Assembly (NCBI GenBank): GCA_945878575.1
Contig: CAMDUB010000007.1
Span: 1 to 64,000 of the forward strand
DNA length: 64,000 bases
Source of the DNA: Phycisphaera mikurensis NBRC 102666
Lineage (GTDB): Bacteria; Planctomycetota; Phycisphaerae; Phycisphaerales; SM1A02
Direction of reading: 5' to 3'
The stretch's first letter is position 1. Each line of letters opens with the position of its first letter. The notes under the pieces are model-generated. The model was not told where the DNA came from. It was given only the letters and a program-made list of their open reading frames with translations, and made no database searches. The position numbers and the translations under genes are program-made. This document shows positions 379 to 12,256 of this stretch, piece after piece.

Positions 379-1293
379 TTACTTCGCAGACACAAACTGA
401 AATTGGATTTGCTGCGGTACGCACGCGTGCCACCACGAATGAACGTGCGCGGGCCTTTCCGCTGGCAATTCAACGATTCGCGCCCGCATGACGACGGGCA
501 GTGGATCAATATCAAACGGATACGGATTCAGTTCAATTCTTCGATCACCTCGCGGGGTGACTGTGATTGTGCAGCGATCCATCCACCTGCGGCGAGGAAC
601 ATCGTGCAGTTCATAGGAATCATCACCAAGACCTTTAGAAGCGCCAGTTTTTGAAGGGATCAAGGCAGAACATAGCCCAAGCGAAATTCCATCACACAAC
701 TGAATCAGTCTCTGCAGCGGCGCGAGACTTGCGGGCTCAACCCACGATGCCGTTTCAGGATCTGCGCGAAGTTCTTCGATCCATCCAAGTTGCTTCTCCT
801 GCAACTCAGCCATAAATGCCAGTAGCGCTTCATTGCTCTCAGGACAGAGTTTTTCAGGCGCGCCCTTCCAGAAGAGCGGATGATTGAATGCAGGTTCTGG
901 AGTTTGAAGTGCACGCGCGGCATAGAACAAATACGCATGAGAACTGATGAGAAGATTCACAAACGGTCGGCGTGGAAATCTTGTGAGTCCCCTTCGCCAC
1001 CGATCGATTCCTGCTTGTTGATTCTGCAGTGCTTCGCCAAGACCTGCTGGGAAACCATCTGCCACAGAAAGCTCAGGAATCGCCTCCCACTCCCACCAAC
1101 CATTGTCATGCTCGGCGATAGCAAGAATCACTTCTGCGCGAAGTCGCTCAGGATCCGCGACGGTTTCTGCAGAAAAAAAACCTGGGCGAGTGAAGAGCGT
1201 GTTTCCCCAGTGTGCTGCAATAAATCCAGCGATCTGGCTGTGATCAGGCTGAGTGACCATCCAAAGCTTGCCATCTTGATTTGTCTTCAGCAA
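379..1293 (-). CDS. DUF3891 family protein in the purine operon
   Basis: The 304-residue product matches what I know of DUF3891: an N-terminal WMVTQPDHSQIAGFIAAHWGN segment and, near residue 60, AEHDNGWWEWE, with conserved His, Asp and Trp that could bind a metal. The family has no established function that I know of. The chosen start is a TTG at 1293, with an AAGG about six bases upstream; an ATG at 1260 is the alternative but would cut into the conserved N-terminus. It follows xdhC by 27 bases on the same strand, so it is probably the last gene of the xanthine dehydrogenase operon. A role in purine breakdown is inferred from position only. The C-terminal 100 residues look less conserved. 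Confidence 0.8.
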   Translation of the reverse strand: MLKTNQDGKLWMVTQPDHSQIAGFIAAHWGNTLFTRPGFFSAETVADPERLRAEVILAIAEHDNGWWEWEAIPELSVADGFPAGLGEALQNQQAGIDRWRRGLTRFPRRPFVNLLISSHAYLFYAARALQTPEPAFNHPLFWKGAPEKLCPESNEALLAFMAELQEKQLGWIEELRADPETASWVEPASLAPLQRLIQLCDGISLGLCSALIPSKTGASKGLGDDSYELHDVPRRRWMDRCTITVTPRGDRRIELNPYPFDIDPLPVVMRARIVELPAERPAHVHSWWHACVPQQIQFQFVSAK

Positions 1294-1320: not shown

Positions 1321-2142
1321 TCAAAGGACACATTTCCTGATCACGTCACGTTCCTGCAAGAGTTGTGCGGCGATGCTGACTGCGATTTCCGGCGGGGAGT
1401 TTGATCCAATTGGCAGGCCAATCGGGCAATGAATTCGCTCAACCATCAATTCGTCGAATCCCTCTTTGAGAAGAGTGCTTCGCAGCGTTCGTGACTTTGG
1501 CTCGCTGCCGATGACGCCGATGAATGCGGCGTCACCTCGTCGGAGAATTTCGCGCACGATCGGTAAGTCGGTTGCATGACCTTGCGACATGCAAAGATAA
1601 AATGTTCCTGCAGGCAACTTAGAAACAAACTCCGCAGGTTCTGCGACAAGCACCTTGCACATGTTGGGCTGCGAGGCAATTTTCGCCAGCCAGTCATCGC
1701 GTGGATCAATGCAGGTCAAACTGCACTCGAATGTGCAAAGAAGCAAAAGTGTCGCTTGCGCAACATGCCCCGCACCGAAGAGTGCGATATTCCAATTCGG
1801 CAGCGCAGAGATTTCATAAAACAAAGTTGCAGCTCCGCCACAAACCATGTTCAAATCGCGCAGAAGTTCATATCGAACAATCTCCGGCTGAACCGTAGCA
1901 GCAGGAATTGCGCCCGCAAGCTGCCGAGCGATCATCGCTTGCCCATGGGTGATTGCGCGAGCCTCAAGCCGACCGCCGCCGACAGTTCCCCATGCAAGTC
2001 CACTCGCAGTGACAATCGCTTTCGCCCCAATATCTTGCGGAACGTGCCCTTCAGGCTCAACAAGTGTGACGGTAACAAAGACTGTGCCTCGCTCGGCGAG
2101 TGCACTTGCCTGATGAAGATATTCACGCATCGAATAACTCAT
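1321..2142 (-). CDS. xdhC: XdhC-type molybdenum cofactor sulfuration/insertion chaperone
   Basis: XdhC proteins bind the molybdenum cofactor, promote its sulfuration and deliver it to xanthine dehydrogenase. The 273-residue product shows the N-terminal XdhC domain (VTLVEPEGHVPQDIGAKAIV, then WGTVGGGRLEA) and the C-terminal Rossmann-like domain (NIALFGAGHVAQATLLLL, and FIGVIGSEPKSRTLRSTL with a following IHCPIGLPIGSNSPPEIAVS). The start is the ATG at 2142, preceded by GGGAGC; the longer open frame upstream is noncoding-looking and overlaps xdhB. It lies 16 bases after the xdhB stop, in the order xdhA-xdhB-xdhC, which is a common arrangement. Confidence 0.93.
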   Translation of the reverse strand: MSYSMREYLHQASALAERGTVFVTVTLVEPEGHVPQDIGAKAIVTASGLAWGTVGGGRLEARAITHGQAMIARQLAGAIPAATVQPEIVRYELLRDLNMVCGGAATLFYEISALPNWNIALFGAGHVAQATLLLLCTFECSLTCIDPRDDWLAKIASQPNMCKVLVAEPAEFVSKLPAGTFYLCMSQGHATDLPIVREILRRGDAAFIGVIGSEPKSRTLRSTLLKEGFDELMVERIHCPIGLPIGSNSPPEIAVSIAAQLLQERDVIRKCVL

Positions 2143-2158
2143 TGTGAGCTCCCGATTG

Positions 2159-4651
2159 TCAATGGACAGCACTTGCTTCTTGCGTATCCCAGATGGCGAA
2201 TGATTCTGGTGAGAGTCCGCGCAACACGCGCTCTGCGGTTGCTGGAATGGCCAGCGGGACAAGGTGCACGTTTTCTGTTTTTGAATGATTGCGCGCCGAC
2301 ATGATCGCATCGCGCACCGCGGTCCACACTGAGAGCGATAGAAGCAGCGGCGGCTCGCCCGAAGCCTTCGAGCCACGCACATTCACCGTATTTCCATGGT
2401 TAAAGATCAGGTCCGCATTGAAGACACGCGGGGTGTCCTGCACGTTCGGAATCTTGTACGTGCTGGGTGAATGGGAAAGCAACTTGCCATTGTCGTCATA
2501 CACCAAGTGTTCCGTCGTCACCCAACCCATGCCTTGCACGAAGCCACCCATCACCTGCCCCATGTCAAGCGCGTGGTTCACCGGCCGACCCATGTCCATC
2601 AGAATGTCGACGCGCCGCACCTTGACCTCGCCGGTATGCCGATCAAGCTCCACCTCACTCGCGGCAACGCCCTGCGTGAAATACAAGAATGCTTTGCCCT
2701 TACCAGTGAGCTTGTCGAATCCCAAATCAGGGATGCGGTAATGCGCGTATTCGCTCACGGAAATTCGATTGAGATACGCCTCGCGTACAAGTGCTGCGAA
2801 GCCCACGGAGAACACTGATCCAGAGCGATCCGTCACCGTCACCACGCCGTCGCTGAACTCCACGCGCTGCTCATCGGTCCCACGTGGACTGACTTCTGAT
2901 CCCACCGTGATTTCCGGCATGGTTCCAAGAGCGGCGGTCTTTCCCGCCCACGATTCCTGCGGAATTGATCGCAGGCGAATGGCGAGCGCAGATAGGCGCC
3001 CGCGAATCGTCTCGCATGCCTGAAGCGCAGCAGCACCATTGATATCGGTGCCCGCCGACGCAGCGGTCGGCGATGTGTTCGCGTTCTTCTCCGTCGATGT
3101 TGGCATCATCCGCACTGACTCGGTCGGCAGCCCAAACTGCTCAGCAACGATTGCCGCAATGCGCGTATTCACGCCCTGCCCCATCTCAACTGCGCCGGTT
3201 GAGACCTGCACAGTTCCATCGCGATGAAGATTGACGAGTGCGTTGCCTTGGTTCAAAAATCGCGTGGTGAACGAAATGCCAAACTTAACCGCCGTCAGCG
3301 AAAGTCCACGCGGATGCCCGTCCGGATTGCGCGCCCGATCACCGTTCCACGCTGCAATTTCCGCGCGGCGCGCGCGGTATGCGCATCGTTCCGTGAGCGT
3401 TGCGAACAGCTCCGGCAAGTGGTTGTCCTCAACGCGCTGCCCATAGGGCGTCATGTCTTGGCCAGGCCCGTAGCAATTCAATATGCGAACATCAAGCGCG
3501 TCACGACCAACAACGCGTGCGATGTCCTCAATGACGGACTCAATGAGCGCAACGCCCTTGGGGCCACCGAAGCCGCGAAATGCAGTGTGTGGATGGAAAT
3601 TGGTGCGACACACCTGCCCGCGCACACGCATATTCGGAATGAAATACGCGTTGTCGCAGTGCAACATGGCGCGTTCCATGATCGCCGTGGAAAGATCGGC
3701 ATACGCACCGCCGTCGGCATGCAACATTGCGTCCATCGCAATGATTCGACCGTCCACATCGAAGCCGCACTGATACTCAATCCGGAAAGGATTTCGCTTC
3801 CCAGTGATGATCATGTCGTCGTCCTTGGAAAGAACGAGACGCGCCGCGCGGCCAGTCTGCTTCGCCACCAATGCGGCATACGCGGCAATAGGAGCCGCCT
3901 GCGATTCCTTGCCCCCAAATGCGCCGCCCAAGCGCTTGGCAATGCACACCACATCGCTGAAGCGCACGCCGCACGCTTCTGCAACCACGTGTTGCGTCTC
4001 AGTGGGATGCTGCGTCGAGGAATGCACTTCGAGCTGCCCGTCCTCGCGCGGATACACCACTGCCGCTTGGCTCTCAAGATAGAAGTGATCAGCGCCACCG
4101 ATCTCTAGCGTTCCCGCAATGCGGTGAGGCGACCGCGCCAGCCCTGCCGCTGCGTCACCAGTTGCGATCGTGCGTTCCGATCCGATGAAACTCTTCGCCG
4201 CCACCGCTTCTGCCACGCTGCGAATGGCAGGCAATTTTTCCCATTCCACTACAACTGCAGCCAAACCCTTCGCGAGCGCTTCCTTGGTCTCTGCACCCAG
4301 CACGGCCACCACTTCGCCAACGAAGTTCACCTCGGATGCTGCAATGATCGGCTGATCTTGAAAGATGGTGCCCCAAACGTTGTGCGCCACATCAGCGGCG
4401 GTCACAGCACACACAACGCCAGGAATAGCGAGCGCGGGCGCGGTTTCGAGGCGGCGCACTCGCGCGCGCGCGTATGGGCTGTACACCAGCCCGCAGTGCA
4501 GTTCGCCCTTTAGCATCGGGCGGTCATCGATGTATTCCGATTTTCCCGTGACATGGGTCGTAGACGAATCATGCGGCACCGATCCCTGATCAGTAATGAT
4601 CGCAGCGAGCCGAGTAGGAGTACTGGTGTGCTCAGCCACGGAGCACCTCAT
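2159..4651 (-). CDS. xdhB: Xanthine dehydrogenase, molybdopterin-binding subunit
   Basis: This is the large catalytic subunit that oxidises hypoxanthine to xanthine and urate. Key segments, numbered from the ATG at 4651: GGAFGGKES near 243-250, whose Glu249 matches the purine-binding Glu802 of the bovine enzyme; AFRGFGGPKG near 357-366, whose Arg359 matches bovine Arg880; and GSKASGEPPL near 760-769, whose Glu766 matches the catalytic Glu1261. All three support purine rather than aldehyde oxidation. The length (about 830) is slightly above the usual 770-780. The gene overlaps the end of xdhA. A GTG at 4639, with GAGGTG just upstream, is an equally plausible start and would give an 8-base overlap. 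Confidence 0.95.
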   Translation of the reverse strand: MRCSVAEHTSTPTRLAAIITDQGSVPHDSSTTHVTGKSEYIDDRPMLKGELHCGLVYSPYARARVRRLETAPALAIPGVVCAVTAADVAHNVWGTIFQDQPIIAASEVNFVGEVVAVLGAETKEALAKGLAAVVVEWEKLPAIRSVAEAVAAKSFIGSERTIATGDAAAGLARSPHRIAGTLEIGGADHFYLESQAAVVYPREDGQLEVHSSTQHPTETQHVVAEACGVRFSDVVCIAKRLGGAFGGKESQAAPIAAYAALVAKQTGRAARLVLSKDDDMIITGKRNPFRIEYQCGFDVDGRIIAMDAMLHADGGAYADLSTAIMERAMLHCDNAYFIPNMRVRGQVCRTNFHPHTAFRGFGGPKGVALIESVIEDIARVVGRDALDVRILNCYGPGQDMTPYGQRVEDNHLPELFATLTERCAYRARRAEIAAWNGDRARNPDGHPRGLSLTAVKFGISFTTRFLNQGNALVNLHRDGTVQVSTGAVEMGQGVNTRIAAIVAEQFGLPTESVRMMPTSTEKNANTSPTAASAGTDINGAAALQACETIRGRLSALAIRLRSIPQESWAGKTAALGTMPEITVGSEVSPRGTDEQRVEFSDGVVTVTDRSGSVFSVGFAALVREAYLNRISVSEYAHYRIPDLGFDKLTGKGKAFLYFTQGVAASEVELDRHTGEVKVRRVDILMDMGRPVNHALDMGQVMGGFVQGMGWVTTEHLVYDDNGKLLSHSPSTYKIPNVQDTPRVFNADLIFNHGNTVNVRGSKASGEPPLLLSLSVWTAVRDAIMSARNHSKTENVHLVPLAIPATAERVLRGLSPESFAIWDTQEASAVH

Positions 4652-6107
4652 TGCCAAAGCGTCGGAAGATATATGCAGCAGTCACGCGTCGGTATGCACC
4701 ACTGCCGCGAACATCAGAGATCGGCGCAATTGATCCAGCGATCAGGTGCGCTACTGATTCAATGCGCTCAGTCGTGAGTTCGCCGCACAGGGCCTGCTCT
4801 GCGTCTGGCATCCGGACAGGCGTCGCTGCAACTCCGCCGTAAGCGATCCGCGCGGATGTCACACACGGCGCCGATTTCCCGCGACGCCCAGTGCCGAGCG
4901 TGACCGCAAATGCCCCGCTGACTGCGCTGATATCGAGATCCTTGCGCTGCGAAACCTTGCAGAGTCGCAGCACCTCGCGCGATGGCGTCCGCTGAAATGA
5001 CACGTGAGTAATGATCTCGCCCGGCTCGAGCGCCAGTTGTTTATACCCAAGATACAACTCAGTCATTGCAATCGATCGCTTGCGAATCGGCCCCTTGCCA
5101 CCCGGCCGCCCGGCGACATGGACTGTGCCGCCTGCAATCAGAAGAAACGGCAGCGTGTCTCCAATCGGCGACGCGTTCGCGATGTTGCCGACCAGTGTCG
5201 CAACATTCTTAATCTGCGGCGACGCAAAGAGGTTCAGGAACTGCGCAAACTCCGGGGCAACGTCCTCGCTCACGCGGCGCACCTCTGCAAGCGTCACGCG
5301 CGCGCCGAAAGTCGCGCCAGCGCGACTCACTTTCGTTGCATAGAGCTCGGGTACAAGATGCAAACTCAGAAGCGCCGCAGGCATCGGCTTGCCCTTATTG
5401 ATCTGCACACCAAGGTCCGTAGCCGCACCAATCACCCGGAATCCCGGATGGAGCGCAGCAAAGGTGACTGCCTCGCGCAGCGTTGCTGGCGCAAACAATT
5501 CCACGCCGTCATGGCTCACTCGCATCGACTGCTCTGTTGCTGTAATCGATTCGGCAACTGCGTTCATATCTGAATATCGAAGGGCCACGGAATGTTGCTC
5601 AGTAGCGCGCACGGTGAGTGCCGCCTGAATGATCGGCGCATATCCAGTGCAGCGGCATAAATTCCCGGTGAGATAGTTCATTGCCATCCGCTCATCGGCC
5701 TGCGCATGCTTCTCCAACATGCCGCTCAACGCCATCACGAAACCGGGTGTGCAGTAGCCACACTGCGATGCGTGACATACGCGCATGGCATGTTGCGCTG
5801 GCGACAATTCATTACCGCGCTGCATGCCTTCCACTGTGACGATGTGCGCGCCATCCATCTGCGCCACGGTCGCAATACAAGAATTCATTGCCTCATACTC
5901 AAACGCTGCCCCTGCGACGAAGGCTGCGCCCGGTCGCGGGAACGCACGCAACACCGTGCACGCGCCACAGTCCCCTTCCGCACACACAATCTTCGTGCCA
6001 GACAGGCCGGCTTCCTTGCGCAACCACTCCGCGAGCATCATCAAGGCCTCACGACCTCGTATCTCACGGCGCACGCCATTCACATGGAGAAGTGCATAAT
6101 CACGCAT
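4632..6107 (-). CDS. xdhA: Xanthine dehydrogenase, FAD and iron-sulfur subunit
   Basis: The 491-residue product carries electrons from the molybdenum site through two [2Fe-2S] clusters to FAD. The plant-type ferredoxin domain has CAEGDCGACTVL at 42-53; the second cluster domain has CHASQCGYCTPGFVM and NLCRCTGYAPI. The FAD domain follows with VIGAATDLGVQINKG and ATLVGNIANASPIGDTLP, and the CO dehydrogenase flavoprotein C-terminal domain ends the protein. Fusion of both halves in one chain is the usual bacterial XdhA layout. The ATG at 6107 is preferred; a GTG two codons upstream (6113) is possible. It starts 36 bases after the giant fusion gene and overlaps xdhB, so the three are probably one transcript. 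Confidence 0.95.
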   Translation of the reverse strand: MRDYALLHVNGVRREIRGREALMMLAEWLRKEAGLSGTKIVCAEGDCGACTVLRAFPRPGAAFVAGAAFEYEAMNSCIATVAQMDGAHIVTVEGMQRGNELSPAQHAMRVCHASQCGYCTPGFVMALSGMLEKHAQADERMAMNYLTGNLCRCTGYAPIIQAALTVRATEQHSVALRYSDMNAVAESITATEQSMRVSHDGVELFAPATLREAVTFAALHPGFRVIGAATDLGVQINKGKPMPAALLSLHLVPELYATKVSRAGATFGARVTLAEVRRVSEDVAPEFAQFLNLFASPQIKNVATLVGNIANASPIGDTLPFLLIAGGTVHVAGRPGGKGPIRKRSIAMTELYLGYKQLALEPGEIITHVSFQRTPSREVLRLCKVSQRKDLDISAVSGAFAVTLGTGRRGKSAPCVTSARIAYGGVAATPVRMPDAEQALCGELTTERIESVAHLIAGSIAPISDVRGSGAYRRVTAAYIFRRFGNEVLRG

Positions 6108-6142
6108 TGACACGATCGTAGCACCCGCAGCACGCGCGCTAC

Positions 6143-9100
6143 TCAGGGCGCCGCGAACACCCGCACCCGGTTCATTCCACCATCAGGAAACACGATCACC
6201 CGAATCTGCTCACACGGGCCGACTCTGCCCACTTGGAAGGCGATGATGTTGCCAGCAAACGCCTTGACCTCCGTGAGCGCAACCAATGGCACCCACTCCG
6301 TGCCACATAGGCCGTCGATCGCAACCTCGCGCGGATTGTTGTTGACGAAATGACTAAAATCCAACTCAATTCGACCGATCTTTGCCGGTTGCCCAAGCCT
6401 GATCACCACATTCTCCGAGTGTCCCGGCTCACGACTTCGCGCCGACTCGAGCCCGTCCACCATGCTGAGCGGCGGATACGGAGAGATGACTTGCGTGGCT
6501 GGCGAGTAGTGCTCATTGGAAGCAGAAACCACCTGACCACCGAAGGCCGCGCTTGCGAGATCCGCCAACCCACTACCGACCCGGGCAATGCTGGCGGCCA
6601 CCTCCGCAGCGGTCGTGGTGTATCTCGGCGTCATCGGCTTCTTCGTTTGCGGATCAAACGCATGCCAAGCGCGGATCGCGGGTGAAAGCATGCGCTCCTT
6701 CTCAGCCACAGGAAGCTCATTCCCATACAGCGCGAGACGAGTGACGCCCCCATCGGGGTACATGCGCACGCGGATCCGCTGAAACTGAGCAACACCCGAA
6801 ATGGACTCCACCGCGTGGGCGCCGTGTCCAAAGAGTTGCATAGGCGCCACAATCGCCTGCCACTCCCCGCGCGCTGCATCCCAACCGTCGATCTCCAGTT
6901 TCTCGGCATGATTTCCAAGATGGAACTGCGTCGAAACCGCAACACAACTCACCGCTGCAGGACGTTGCAATTCAAAGATCATCCAATCAAACGGTTCCGG
7001 ATTGTGGCGAACCGTCTCCCAACTATCCATGATCTTTCCCTGACGCCCAAAAAGCTTGGGATCGAAAGTAGGCAGATACGGCGACAGTAAATTCTCCGCG
7101 CGCGCAAATCGCTGGTTTGAAACCGCTTCGACACGTGCGCCGACTACATGATTGAAGGTGGCGAGCGGATCACGCGGCCCGTGCGCATCGATCTCCTCGG
7201 GCAGATCCGCTGCAAACGCTGCGAACACCAATTCTCGGTAGCCCGCGTTGACACGCTGTTCCGGTGGAATACCGCCGAATGCCAAATCACTCCGAAATTG
7301 GCTCGTATCTACGCCGCGCATTCCCATGTGCCGCAGAATGATCTGCGCGGCCTCTGCAACGAACAACATGCCCGCGTGCTCCCCATTGCACAACACCACG
7401 AAGCCGTTCCCTGCGTCTGGACCCGCGTAACAATGGACGAACAGCGCGCGGAATCCGTCATTCGCACCCTGATGTATCGCCAGACGATTCGGTCCCGCTT
7501 CGGCCGTGAAGATGCCAAGACCCATGTTGCATCCCATAAATTCACGACATCCCCTATCGGATCCATGCAACATCCGCACCGCCGTCTCATGAGAAATCAG
7601 TCCGCATCCATTGATGCTCTGATGCGCGTTACTCAGTGCCATAAGGAACCGCGCGACGTCAGCGGCTGACGCCACTGCCCCAGCAGCGATTGCGGGAAAC
7701 ACCTTGCGCGTACCTACTACTGGTTCTCCAGAATCAAGAAATCCAGTCGCGCACTCCAAGCCAACCAGTTCATCTTCACAGAACGTACATTCGTCCATTC
7801 CGAGCTCGCGCAAGAATGCATCGATCTGAACATGAACGGGTGCGCCTCCCATACACTCGATGAGGTGCTGAAGTACCAGGAATCCACCGCCCGAATATTG
7901 AAACCGCGTTCCCGGCGCATTCACAACGCCCACTGGCTCGTACCCATGTCGCTCGTTACCGTTCAGGAGCTCAAAGATCGGCGGAAATGCCTCGTTTGCA
8001 GGCACGCCATTCACATAATGCATGTTCAAGCCCTGGTGCGACATGAGGTGCGCCACCGTGACTTGATCCGCCCATTCTGGATGCGCTGCGTCGAGAGACG
8101 GGACTCGAAACTTCGAACCAGCCTTGGAAAGGAGCGCGTTCACGCTCGCAGAAATTGGAACGCCCGCCTTGCGAAATTGCTCCATCACGAAGCACGTACC
8201 GATGCTCTTACTGAGCGACGCGATCTCAAATCCTGTCTGCGGAGTGACTGCATGGAGCGCATTACGATTCCCAAACTGCAACGATTGCAGATGATTCACC
8301 GGGGAAGCGACACACACCGATGCACCCTTCACCCCGTGCCGCGCAAGCGCAGCGGTGATCTCATCAAACACTGTATCCACCGGCTGCGCGAGCAATCGAC
8401 CCTTTGTGATCTGCCAAAGCGCTTCGCGCGCATGCCCAAGCTCCACTTCATGCGAATGCTCGATCCGAGTTCGCAGCGCCTCCAGCAGTTCTGTCCCAGT
8501 ACGCCCCTTGGCAGCCACCAAAAACTTGAAACCAAACCGCTCTCGATATCGGCTGCCGAGGCCGCGAAGTTCCTGTGCAACTTCGGCGGTGCCTCCTAAG
8601 ACCTTCGCCTGCTCCTGCGCCGCCGTCGCGTCGAGCGTCCGAGCAGCCTCGCCAATATCACCGTGAAAGTGCGCTGCCTCATTGATCTCATGAATATCAA
8701 AGCTGCGCACCAACTGCTCGGCCTTGCCAAGATCCAACACCGGATCGAGCGCCATTTGCTCGGCAAATCGCCGACTTCCACACGCCGAGAAGAACGCATG
8801 TAGTCGCGCCAACCGCTTCGGAATCGCATACTTCGTAGGCTCGATCGCCTGCAGCGCTGCCCACGGATCCTCCTGCGTTCGGATCGCATCAAGCGTGAAC
8901 GGCAGCAACAGCTCAGTAGCGAATTCAACTGGCGACTCGCTGCCCATCAGCTGCAACATCAGATTCATAGCAACCGGATACCACTTCCGCGTGCGATCGT
9001 CCCACTTCACCTGGACGATCTTGCGCTGGTCCGAAAGATCCTTCCGAATGAAATGCATTTCCTCATGTGCAATGCGCATGAAATCGGCACACGAGAAGCG

Positions 9101-10969
9101 TCCGTGCTGCAGTTCGTGCCAAACTTCCCAACGCGATCGCTCCGCGGTTGCCAAGTCATCCATGACCCGCACCGGCACACCATCGATATTCGCCGGGAGC
9201 GCGACGCAACCATTGCCGCTCAACCAGTCGGTGAGGTACTGCAGCGCTTGGAAGACGTTGTAACGAATCTCTTCCGGATCATTGTTAGCAACGAAACCCG
9301 CCGTATTTCGATCCGCCACAAGCAACGAACGCGGATACAACGGATTGTCCCGATCAAGGCCGCGCACATCTGAACCATGAATGAAGTCCAGCACCTCGCG
9401 GTGGTGCTCCGGCACGAGAAGCGCGGTGACAAGCGAGTCCAACGCTGCTCCGTCGCCCTTCTGCGAGCGCTTCCACGCCTCCACCAGCGCCAACCCAAGG
9501 CGGACAAAGTCCGGATGCGCTACCCAGAATCCCGAGAGATCACGCTTCATCTGCGTGATGACATCCTTGATGAATCCCTTGATGGCTACTTGAAATGATG
9601 CGCCACGAATATCGCCGTCGGCAGGAAGAACACCGTACATACCGCCAACTTTGATGCCGCCACGCGAACCAACCACCTGCGCAAGAAGATCGTGGGAGGC
9701 CTTGATGTAATTGATCACAATGCCCGGATCCGCCTTCACGGGAATCCGATAGTTGCCGTCATTCTTCATCAGCCGCGCCGTCGACGCAAGAAAGTCATGC
9801 CACCCGAGCGACGCGCCAGCGAAGTACGGATCCAGCGCATCCATGATCTCATTGACACGGAACATCGCGCGTGGATTCTCCAACACAATGAGTAAACGAA
9901 TGGTGCCGATTCGATACTCGGGATGCTGCGCCGCAATCAACCGCTCCGCACGCTCAAGCATGACGCGAATGTACGCAGCCTCCTCTTCCGTCTCTAACTT
10001 CGGAACATAGAAGGCCAATGCCTGCGGATTGTTCCAGTTGGCGAAGAGGTGCAATGCAAAGTCGTAGAGATGCAGCGGCAGCGGATTACCGTGCAGGAAT
10101 AGAAATGGGCACGGCAATGCCAAACCCGGAAACCGCTTGATCGGTACGGATCGATGCGACGCGGCCAGCCGGTACTCCTTGCCAGAGCGCGGATCGTCAT
10201 AGGAAATCGTGCCCTGCAAACAGCCAGTCAGATTCTCCCCAGCCAATACCAGATCACCGCGCAGTGGCGTCTTGGAATCCTCGTCGTCGGCGCCCCACTT
10301 GGCGGAACCTGAAAAATCCTTCAGTAATTCTGCCACGATCCCTGGCTCGCCAGGAAGCGTTCGATGAAATGCATTCATCGCATTGATGGAAAGTTTCGCA
10401 TCATCCGGCGGACCAAACAGTGTCACATGACTTCCCTGCAAGAACTCCGGAATCGGTGCGATCGGCGCCCCACTTCCAGCGCGGCAATAGAAACTATTGC
10501 GCGGCCCAATCACCACACGACCGTCAATATCTTCCTGACCAATCACTGTGCGATAGGCCGGATCGCCATATCCCACTTGAAGCTTCGCGTTCAACTCAAA
10601 GCACGCGCGAGTGCGTTGATCAATAAACGCTCGATCCGTCACCCGCTGTCGTAACACGGACGCTAAGTCCAGCTTTACCGCGTGGTACAGGTCGCAAAGA
10701 AAGTGCAGGGATTCCCGGCTTTCAAGCCCACCAATAGTGCCCAACTGCAATAAACCATCAACCCCCGGCACCGGAATCAGCTGCGAACGCAGGTGATCGA
10801 TCAACTCCGCGGAGATGTAGTCACGGTACGAGGGAATCTCAGCGGTGTGCGCACCTTCTCGTCCAGTCATCACCGCACGATACCTCTGCCACCACCGCCT
10901 TCTTGGCACAATCCGTTTATGTTGCGAGCAGTTTGCTCCAATCTCCCTCATCAACGTTGACCCACACAT
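6143..10969 (-). CDS. Giant purine-catabolic fusion: malate synthase-like + OHCU decarboxylase + serine hydrolase + allantoicase
   Basis: One uninterrupted 1608-residue frame. Residues about 45-720 resemble malate synthase: PKLETEEEAAYIR at 323, VLENPRAMFRVNEI with Glu364, GWHDF with Asp392, RGGIKVGGM at 436, and the C-terminal MDDLATAERSR with the catalytic-Asp equivalent Asp605; the usual RPRG arginine motif is not seen verbatim. Residues about 720-860 resemble OHCU decarboxylase (HFHGDIGEA at 767, AAQEQ at 783, YRERFGFKFLV at 808). Residues about 865-1225 are a class C beta-lactamase/esterase-type hydrolase (SLSK 918-921, YSG 1025-1027, HQG 1166-1168). Residues about 1265-1608 are two allantoicase repeats (MDSWETVRHNPEPFDW at 1314; MVDGLESARSREPGH at 1503; YPDGG and FPDGG ends). 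The start at 10969 has AAAGGAG five bases upstream; the ATG at 10870 is an alternative because the first 33 residues look unconserved. Confidence 0.88.
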   Translation of the reverse strand: MCGSTLMREIGANCSQHKRIVPRRRWWQRYRAVMTGREGAHTAEIPSYRDYISAELIDHLRSQLIPVPGVDGLLQLGTIGGLESRESLHFLCDLYHAVKLDLASVLRQRVTDRAFIDQRTRACFELNAKLQVGYGDPAYRTVIGQEDIDGRVVIGPRNSFYCRAGSGAPIAPIPEFLQGSHVTLFGPPDDAKLSINAMNAFHRTLPGEPGIVAELLKDFSGSAKWGADDEDSKTPLRGDLVLAGENLTGCLQGTISYDDPRSGKEYRLAASHRSVPIKRFPGLALPCPFLFLHGNPLPLHLYDFALHLFANWNNPQALAFYVPKLETEEEAAYIRVMLERAERLIAAQHPEYRIGTIRLLIVLENPRAMFRVNEIMDALDPYFAGASLGWHDFLASTARLMKNDGNYRIPVKADPGIVINYIKASHDLLAQVVGSRGGIKVGGMYGVLPADGDIRGASFQVAIKGFIKDVITQMKRDLSGFWVAHPDFVRLGLALVEAWKRSQKGDGAALDSLVTALLVPEHHREVLDFIHGSDVRGLDRDNPLYPRSLLVADRNTAGFVANNDPEEIRYNVFQALQYLTDWLSGNGCVALPANIDGVPVRVMDDLATAERSRWEVWHELQHGRFSCADFMRIAHEEMHFIRKDLSDQRKIVQVKWDDRTRKWYPVAMNLMLQLMGSESPVEFATELLLPFTLDAIRTQEDPWAALQAIEPTKYAIPKRLARLHAFFSACGSRRFAEQMALDPVLDLGKAEQLVRSFDIHEINEAAHFHGDIGEAARTLDATAAQEQAKVLGGTAEVAQELRGLGSRYRERFGFKFLVAAKGRTGTELLEALRTRIEHSHEVELGHAREALWQITKGRLLAQPVDTVFDEITAALARHGVKGASVCVASPVNHLQSLQFGNRNALHAVTPQTGFEIASLSKSIGTCFVMEQFRKAGVPISASVNALLSKAGSKFRVPSLDAAHPEWADQVTVAHLMSHQGLNMHYVNGVPANEAFPPIFELLNGNERHGYEPVGVVNAPGTRFQYSGGGFLVLQHLIECMGGAPVHVQIDAFLRELGMDECTFCEDELVGLECATGFLDSGEPVVGTRKVFPAIAAGAVASAADVARFLMALSNAHQSINGCGLISHETAVRMLHGSDRGCREFMGCNMGLGIFTAEAGPNRLAIHQGANDGFRALFVHCYAGPDAGNGFVVLCNGEHAGMLFVAEAAQIILRHMGMRGVDTSQFRSDLAFGGIPPEQRVNAGYRELVFAAFAADLPEEIDAHGPRDPLATFNHVVGARVEAVSNQRFARAENLLSPYLPTFDPKLFGRQGKIMDSWETVRHNPEPFDWMIFELQRPAAVSCVAVSTQFHLGNHAEKLEIDGWDAARGEWQAIVAPMQLFGHGAHAVESISGVAQFQRIRVRMYPDGGVTRLALYGNELPVAEKERMLSPAIRAWHAFDPQTKKPMTPRYTTTAAEVAASIARVGSGLADLASAAFGGQVVSASNEHYSPATQVISPYPPLSMVDGLESARSREPGHSENVVIRLGQPAKIGRIELDFSHFVNNNPREVAIDGLCGTEWVPLVALTEVKAFAGNIIAFQVGRVGPCEQIRVIVFPDGGMNRVRVFAAP

Positions 10970-10991: not shown

Positions 10992-11342
10992 GTGACCCAT
11001 CCTGCTGAACTCGGCCTCTCAACGCATGTTCTCGACACTTCCACCGGGCGACCAGCACCGGGAGTCCATCTTGAACTGCACGCCCTGCATGGGGGCACTT
11101 GGAAGCAGGTGCATACCACTCATACCGATGCCGACGGCCGCGCCCAGGGACTGAGTAAGGGTCCGCTGGAAGCCGGTGACTATCGCCTGCAATTCGACAC
11201 TTGCTCATGGTTTGCAAAGCAGGGCATTGAGTGCTTCTTTCCATCCGTCACCATTGAGTTCCGCGTCAGTGACACGCAACGCCATCACCATGTTCCGCTT
11301 CTCTTGAGCCCGTTCGGATACTCCACTTATCGAGGCAGTTAA
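10992..11342 (+). CDS. 5-hydroxyisourate hydrolase (transthyretin-like)
   Basis: The enzyme opens 5-hydroxyisourate, the urate oxidase product, to OHCU. The 116-residue product has the family hallmarks: GLSTHVLDTSTGRPAPGV near the N-terminus with the active-site His, FPSVTIEFRV in the middle, a HHHVPLLLSPFGYSTY segment, and the diagnostic C-terminal YRGS. The length is typical. The start is a GTG and no ribosome binding site is visible ahead of it. It precedes urate oxidase by two bases and diverges from the fusion protein that holds the next enzyme, OHCU decarboxylase. Periplasmic versions carry a signal peptide; this one does not, so it is cytoplasmic. Confidence 0.95.
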   Translation: MTHPAELGLSTHVLDTSTGRPAPGVHLELHALHGGTWKQVHTTHTDADGRAQGLSKGPLEAGDYRLQFDTCSWFAKQGIECFFPSVTIEFRVSDTQRHHHVPLLLSPFGYSTYRGS

Positions 11343-11344
11343 CT

Positions 11345-12256
11345 ATGACCATCATTCTTGGTGAAAATCGTTATGGCAAAGCAGAGAACCGGGTCTTCCG
11401 CGTCACTCGCCACGGCGACACCCATGAAATATTGGATCTCAATGTCTCAGTCCAACTCAGTGGTGACTTCGCCGCCACTCACCTCACGGGCGACAACCGC
11501 AATGTGCTGCCAACCGATACGCAAAAGAACACCGTCTTTGCGCTGTCGCATCTGCACGGCGCCATGGAGCCTGAAGCGTTCGGCCTTGTTCTTGCACGCC
11601 ACTTCTTGAGCAATCACCCGCACATTTTAGCGGTCGAAGTTCGGCTCGAAAAGTTTGACTGGGATCGAATCGTCTGTAACGGGACCCCACATCCGCATGC
11701 ATTCCGCCGCAATGGTTCGCTGATCCGCACTGCCACGGTGCTTGCGTCGCGCACCACCACCGGAGTGCGAGAATTGGTGGTTTCCGGATTGAAGGACTTA
11801 ACAGTTCTGAAGACCACTGGCAGTGAATTCAAGGGGTACCTACGCGATCAATTCACCACGCTTGCTGAAACAACCGACCGCATCATGGCCACACAGATCT
11901 GCGCGCGCTGGCATGCCACCGCCACTGACGCCGCCACTCTTGACCGTGTCGATTGGCTCAAGCAGTACAACGACGCTTTGCACACACTGCTCACTACATT
12001 TGCTGAGCATCACAGTCTCTCCCTTCAACAAACGCTCTACGCCATGGGCGAACGCGCACTCTCCGTGTTACCCGCTATCGCAGCAATCAAACTCTCACTG
12101 CCAAACAAACATCACTTTGCTGTTGACCTCTCCGGATGTGGTCAAGAGAACTGCAACGAAGTATTCATCGCTGCCGACCGCCCCTATGGTTTGATTGAAG
12201 CAGTCATCCAACGGGACAACGCGCCGTCTGTGACTGAACTCTGGCCGTCATGGTGA
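11345..12256 (+). CDS. Urate oxidase (cofactor-free uricase)
   Basis: Oxidises urate to 5-hydroxyisourate. The 303-residue length fits the family. Visible signatures are YGKAENRVFRV near residue 10, whose Lys is the general base partner; VLPTDTQKNTVFAL near 54-67, which holds the catalytic Thr; a second tunnel-fold repeat with PHAFRRNGSLIRTA and GLKDLTVLKTTGSEF; and NKHHFAVDL near 254-262, with the Asn/His of the active site. It starts two bases after hiuH stops and is surely cotranscribed. With xanthine dehydrogenase and the fusion protein it forms a continuous urate pathway. No terminator is visible in the 98 bases that separate it from the convergent hydrolase gene. Confidence 0.95.
   Translation: MTIILGENRYGKAENRVFRVTRHGDTHEILDLNVSVQLSGDFAATHLTGDNRNVLPTDTQKNTVFALSHLHGAMEPEAFGLVLARHFLSNHPHILAVEVRLEKFDWDRIVCNGTPHPHAFRRNGSLIRTATVLASRTTTGVRELVVSGLKDLTVLKTTGSEFKGYLRDQFTTLAETTDRIMATQICARWHATATDAATLDRVDWLKQYNDALHTLLTTFAEHHSLSLQQTLYAMGERALSVLPAIAAIKLSLPNKHHFAVDLSGCGQENCNEVFIAADRPYGLIEAVIQRDNAPSVTELWPSW

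Follow-up and report, generated by a model that had tools for sequence, protein, structure and literature searches.

OHCU decarboxylase yields (S)-allantoin, allantoicase consumes allantoate, and allantoinase connects the two. The question raised by this locus is how the connecting step is made when both enzymes are parts of one polypeptide that carries, between them, a serine hydrolase of the SxxK type. The window, by which we mean the whole stretch of 64 000 nucleotides analysed, holds a single open frame in which Pfam recognized, in order, a malate-synthase-like domain, OHCU decarboxylase, an S12 serine hydrolase and two allantoicase repeats, all above the curated cut-offs (Table 1). An earlier note on this DNA had proposed one frame with four domains in this order, and the Pfam models that it named as a check (malate synthase, OHCU_decarbox, beta-lactamase and allantoicase) all scored above cut-off. 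Its purine-degradation reading of the fusion holds with these domain calls and with the neighbouring genes; xanthine dehydrogenase, urate oxidase and HIU hydrolase, which it had named as neighbours, were confirmed. It had also taken the three domains that it assigned to the pathway to act at successive steps, which was mistaken, because the allantoinase step falls between OHCU decarboxylase and allantoicase.

Table 1. Coordinates of the fusion gene, its domains, the surrounding purine cluster and related loci in other genomes
Feature	Position	Residues	Strand	Basis or remark
Four-domain fusion gene	window 6143-10969		minus	single open frame, 1608 codons as called
Malate-synthase-like domain	8825-10837	45-715	minus	PF01274 and PF20659, above cut-off
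OHCU decarboxylase domain	8384-8725	749-862	minus	PF09349
S12/SxxK serine-hydrolase domain, proposed serine allantoinase	7265-8383	863-1235	minus	PF00144
Two allantoicase repeats	6146-7153	1273-1608	minus	PF03561
HIU hydrolase gene	10992-11342		plus, divergent from fusion	matches HIU hydrolases encoded in other purine clusters
Urate oxidase (uricase)	11345-12256		plus	TIGR03383, 326 bits, above cut-off
Xanthine dehydrogenase small subunit (FeS/FAD)	4632-6113		minus	TIGR02963, 402 bits
Xanthine dehydrogenase molybdopterin subunit	2159-4657		minus	TIGR02965, 837 bits
XdhC accessory protein	1321-2382		minus	TIGR02964, 169.6 bits, above cut-off; true start probably inside called frame
DUF3891 protein	window 379-1293		minus	downstream of XdhC, end of purine cluster
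G439 loci	L147:2-1645 and L149:7877-9730
Stand-alone malate-synthase-like copies, Desulfobulbales	L105:9986-12052, L108:9962-12073
DUF6986 proteins beside canonical allantoin operons	L165:10716-12059, L166:10588-11937, L141:5812-7323
PuuD-type urate oxidase with C-terminal carboxypeptidase-regulatory-like domain	L053:7991-9667			Bdellovibrionota, adjoins fusion
PuuD-type urate oxidase joined to classical allantoinase	L167:1338-3965			G608, 875-aa frame

In GTDB representative genomes 116 relatives were detected; 80 were retained, and 65 full or nearly full frames from these were aligned with the window's fusion in 66 rows. The same domain order was found in ∼65 single-frame proteins of Bdellovibrionota and Planctomycetota, mostly beside HIU hydrolase. 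A second genome from the window's family encodes a full-length homologue with 61% identity, adjacent to urate oxidase and to a nucleoside deaminase, read here as guanine deaminase. These intact homologues, together with catalytic residues identical in 66/66 rows, rule out an assembly artefact, the objection that the earlier note had itself raised, and the existence of the fusion itself is certain. Other Phycisphaerae, in which the note had advised looking, also carry the architecture, the main home of the family being the Bdellovibrionota. Its remark that no enzyme with such an order had been described held in the literature searched, yet the architecture is common in genomes; no paper on the fusion, on a serine allantoinase or on DUF6986 was found in that literature, which covers subscription journals thinly. 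Translation probably begins at Met34 (window 10870), giving a product of ∼1575 aa, as a Met is aligned there in nearly all Planctomycetota homologues inspected (L041 excepted) and codons 1–33 of the called frame are weakly conserved. A search of NCBIfam named the same families with scores below the equivalog cut-offs, and each domain is therefore a divergent family member.

The OHCU decarboxylase match (residues 749–859; 78.4 bits, cut-off 24) extended to the solved enzymes 5uou/3o7h at 3e-13, and the catalytic His769 and Glu786, identical in 66/66, mark the domain as a member of that family; its scores lay below the NCBIfam UraD cut-offs. The allantoicase match, in two stretches from residue 1277, reached 178.9 bits (cut-off 27) and 3e-33 against yeast allantoicase 1sg3, again identifying the family, while its 197.5 bits to the equivalog TIGR02961 (cut-off 277.9) indicate a divergent clade. 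In the malate-synthase-like domain, MS_TIM-barrel matched residues 283–493 (65.8 bits, cut-off 26.4) and MS_C residues 566–685 (40.6 bits, cut-off 23.1), and E. coli malate synthase A (3cuz) was matched at 8.7e-32. Arg279, Glu364, Asp392 and Asp605 align with the malate-synthase catalytic positions, whose roles we take to be those of the textbook enzyme; they are identical in 66/66 and kept in stand-alone relatives, and profile and residues together place the domain in the malate synthase superfamily. It shares with malate synthase A the barrel, the C-terminal domain and these four positions, but it is fused, has unlike substrate-loop motifs, scores 132.9 bits against the 594.5-bit cut-off of the malate synthase A equivalog TIGR01344, and forms a separate divergent clade in a tree that is rough, its outgroup alignment being poor.

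These assignments suggest a scheme in which the neighbouring xanthine dehydrogenase, urate oxidase and HIU hydrolase would supply OHCU, and the OHCU decarboxylase domain would convert it to (S)-allantoin. The SxxK domain would then open the hydantoin ring to give allantoate, from which the allantoicase repeats would produce urea and ureidoglycolate; the latter would break down to glyoxylate, either within the allantoicase site or without catalysis, and the malate-synthase-like domain would condense glyoxylate with acetyl-CoA to malate. It is likely that the fusion protein takes OHCU through to malate, and we regard as decidedly probable the scheme as a whole, in which the last stretch of oxidative purine breakdown lies on one chain and the SxxK domain is the ring opener, all activities being read from sequence and context.

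One alternative concerns a single step and is compatible with a serine allantoinase: the malate-synthase-like domain might use ureidoglycolate directly, or yield some other acyl-CoA/glyoxylate product, with no free glyoxylate. Its low score against malate synthase A and its different substrate loops would fit such an activity, as would the stand-alone relatives, which lie next to ureidoglycine aminohydrolase in genomes that lack ureidoglycolate lyase. Nevertheless, the four catalytic positions are invariant and as in malate synthase, and ureidoglycolate breaks down unaided to glyoxylate and urea (PMC3793230), so that we consider this alternative unlikely. Two of the stand-alone copies, in Desulfobulbales, occur with ureidoglycine aminohydrolase and allantoate amidohydrolase, and ureidoglycolate lyase was not found in the genomes concerned (L105, L108); one Desulfobulbales carrier of the stand-alone gene is the isolate Desulfosediminicola flagellatus.

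The ring-opening step rests on the third domain, in which the earlier note had recognized an SxxK serine hydrolase while leaving its role blank; the family was confirmed, and genome comparison points to an allantoinase. Pfam Beta-lactamase matched residues 871–1209 at 79.4 bits (cut-off 27), and Ser918-x-x-Lys921, Tyr1025-Ser-Gly and His1166-x-Gly1168 supply the SxxK, Yx(N/S) and (K/H)xG motifs of S12 enzymes; Ser918, Lys921, Tyr1025, His1166 and Gly1168 are identical in 66/66 sequences across two phyla. The predicted structure (pLDDT 94.6) has the S12 fold, with a Z of 36.0 and an rmsd of 2.8 over 335 residues to 2qmi; its matches were S12 hydrolases throughout, among them a Pyrococcus PBP homologue and an esterase (both Z 36), D-amino acid amidase (Z 34.5) and R61 DD-peptidase (Z 33). 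Fold and SxxK, YxS and HxG motifs are thus shared with S12 hydrolases such as R61 DD-peptidase, D-amino acid amidase, EstB, LACTB and AmpC, some of which, for example D-amino acid amidase, are amide hydrolases. The domain differs from them in its 15–22% identity in structural alignments, in an invariant His984-Tyr985, a combination that none of the generic S12 proteins compared showed, and in its genomic link to purine breakdown. Ring opening would probably involve acylation of Ser918, with Lys921 and Tyr1025 serving as general acid/base, a route that would dispense with the metal centre of classical allantoinase; to our knowledge, serine-dependent opening of a hydantoin ring has no precedent. 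When the last three domains were modelled jointly a pTM of 0.92 was obtained, which makes a fixed spatial arrangement of OHCU decarboxylase, hydrolase and allantoicase likely, and it is plausible that the fusion provides channelling and a fixed domain stoichiometry.

Among 291 sampled Bdellovibrionota genomes, allantoicase occurred in 74: as a separate protein in 23 and as the fusion, whole or in pieces truncated at contig ends, in 50, while G439 has a classical allantoinase together with an SxxK remnant; the genomes compared are mostly draft MAGs. Classical allantoinase was present in 23/23 genomes with stand-alone allantoicase but in 0/50 with the fusion. Fisher's test gives p ∼2e-19 on the incorrect assumption that the genomes are independent; the fusion clade has one origin, the exclusion therefore represents few independent events, and the value overstates the evidence. 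The classification itself is clear-cut: 21 of the 23 allantoinases exceeded the TIGR03178 cut-off at 515–577 bits and the other two, contig-truncated, scored 308–312 bits; intact true allantoinases as a whole span 508–577 bits and other full-length amidohydrolases, which occur regardless of allantoicase, reach at most ∼319 bits. Neither TIGR03178 nor the PuuE-type allantoinase model TIGR03212 was matched above cut-off in any of the 47 fusion genomes tested, and the fusion protein itself has no match to TIGR03178 or the amidohydrolase family (Pfam, NCBIfam) or to TIGR03212, of the polysaccharide-deacetylase type (NCBIfam). Genomes with separate allantoicase contained no homologue of the SxxK domain beyond weak generic S12 matches, and among the loci inspected in other genomes no stand-alone SxxK relative lay beside allantoicase. 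Several Planctomycetota with allantoicase but without the fusion have a classical allantoinase adjoining it. The SxxK domain may therefore be allantoinase-like in function while belonging to no classical allantoinase family, and its proposed identity as the allantoinase, the best supported reading of the domain, is one that the genome distribution leads us to consider decidedly probable. G438 has allantoate amidohydrolase and a malate-synthase-like gene while neither a recognized allantoinase nor the SxxK domain was found in it, a pattern showing that a missing HMM match does not prove a missing activity.

The SxxK domain might instead act elsewhere in the pathway, on ureidoglycolate or a side substrate, and opening of allantoin might fall to a hydantoinase-like amidohydrolase scoring below threshold or to an ATP-dependent hydantoinase. 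Many fusion genomes, among them the window's, encode amidohydrolases scoring 170–291 bits against the allantoinase model, some of which could be moonlighting hydantoinases. However, those of 270–290 bits are also found in many Bdellovibrionota that lack allantoicase, and so do not track the pathway, and in at least seven fusion genomes (G404, G405, G406, G409, G410, G419, G428) there was one cyclic-amidohydrolase match, at ∼114–128 bits, consistent with dihydroorotase. A Hydantoinase_B-type protein was found in 6/7 Planctomycetota fusion genomes tested (including the window's) as against 1/29 in Bdellovibrionota, where several fusion genomes have the dihydroorotase-like match only and no Hydantoinase_B protein; ATP-dependent hydantoinase was accordingly rejected as a general substitute for allantoinase. 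As to ureidoglycolate, the lack of its lyase (PF04115) in fusion genomes (0/50) would leave a substrate for the domain, but genomes with classical allantoinase and no SxxK domain lack the lyase to about the same extent (found in 3/32 genomes with separate allantoicase), so that it cannot explain the contrast between the genome sets. We consider such a role elsewhere in the pathway distinctly unlikely. The domain is likewise not favoured as a substitute for ureidoglycolate lyase, which is mostly absent with or without it, and was rejected as an HIU hydrolase, the gene for which adjoins the fusion in 66/80 loci (median distance 17 bases). Ureidoglycolate lyase is missing from nearly all the allantoicase genomes examined in both phyla.

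Assignment of the SxxK domain to the allantoinase step is also favoured by operon correspondence. The canonical Bdellovibrionota operon, whole or partial in the loci read, is PuuD – allantoinase (AllB) – allantoicase – OHCU decarboxylase – HIU hydrolase – DUF6986, while the fusion operon is PuuD – HIU hydrolase – fusion. One of three DUF6986 proteins weakly matches the malate-synthase barrel (Pfam). If malate synthase corresponds to DUF6986, and OHCU decarboxylase and allantoicase to themselves, the SxxK domain is left to match AllB. DUF6986 may be an unrecognized glyoxylate- or ureidoglycolate-using lyase/synthase.

G439 is the sole genome with both a classical allantoinase and an SxxK remnant. 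Besides a fusion of allantoinase with OHCU decarboxylase, it has two malate-synthase-like genes standing alone and a serine hydrolase–allantoicase protein, truncated by the contig, in which HHA replaces the family HxG, with loss of the Gly; the SxxK half of the hydrolase is lacking from the assembly. Its allantoicase is the sister branch to all fusions in the tree, and G439 possibly represents a pre-fusion or decaying state. A damaged HxG beside a classical allantoinase is what a serine allantoinase predicts, in this one case. It is very improbable that the SxxK domain serves merely as a non-catalytic module of S12 origin, structural or vestigial, in what would be a three-enzyme protein: its low overall conservation (13% of columns ≥ 95% identical, among the less conserved domains, vs 34% for the malate-synthase domain) looks accessory-like, but its motif residues are invariant across two phyla and damaged only where classical allantoinase occurs, and the pathway would halt at allantoin.

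We think it probable that the SxxK domain represents a third, unrelated type of allantoinase, a metal-free serine enzyme of β-lactamase fold within a four-enzyme chain from OHCU to malate. Its proposed reaction, allantoin to allantoate, and its place in pathway and operon are those of the classical metal allantoinase (AllB/PucH/DAL1, TIGR03178, of the cyclic amidohydrolase superfamily), but it is unrelated in fold, is expected to have no binuclear metal site, and is mutually exclusive with that enzyme in genomes. Recruitment of an unrelated fold has a precedent in PuuE, an allantoinase analogue of polysaccharide-deacetylase fold (Ramazzina et al., 2008, as cited in PMC6983136), to which the SxxK domain is not homologous. 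If the proposal is correct, a penicillin-binding-type fold took over a step for which either the metal centre of an amidohydrolase or a polysaccharide-deacetylase fold is used elsewhere, and one transferable gene came to hold an entire pathway segment. It would also explain how purine breakdown is completed in Bdellovibrionota and freshwater Planctomycetota, and it offers a direct test for a gap left by current genome annotation.

In the allantoicase tree the fusion copies form one clade, separate from stand-alone allantoicases, and the Planctomycetota copies nest inside those of Bdellovibrionota with support of 100/100, which suggests that the gene was transferred horizontally as a whole. No relatives were found on viral contigs, and no plasmid match covered 80% of the SxxK–allantoicase query. 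At two loci the frame is split into two neighbouring open frames, inside the serine hydrolase in L085 and inside OHCU decarboxylase in L099, by a sequencing frameshift or a true split. OHCU decarboxylase is also joined to a neighbouring pathway enzyme in allantoicase–OHCU decarboxylase fusions of Planctomycetota (L138, L145, L146) and in the allantoinase–OHCU decarboxylase fusion of G439 (L149), but these unite two enzymes, without a malate-synthase or SxxK domain. A ∼545-aa gene lies near the fusion in 53/80 loci and was identified by Pfam as a PuuD-type urate oxidase in one tested representative; such an oxidase carries an additional C-terminal domain in L053 and, as a further purine-pathway fusion, is joined to classical allantoinase in L167.
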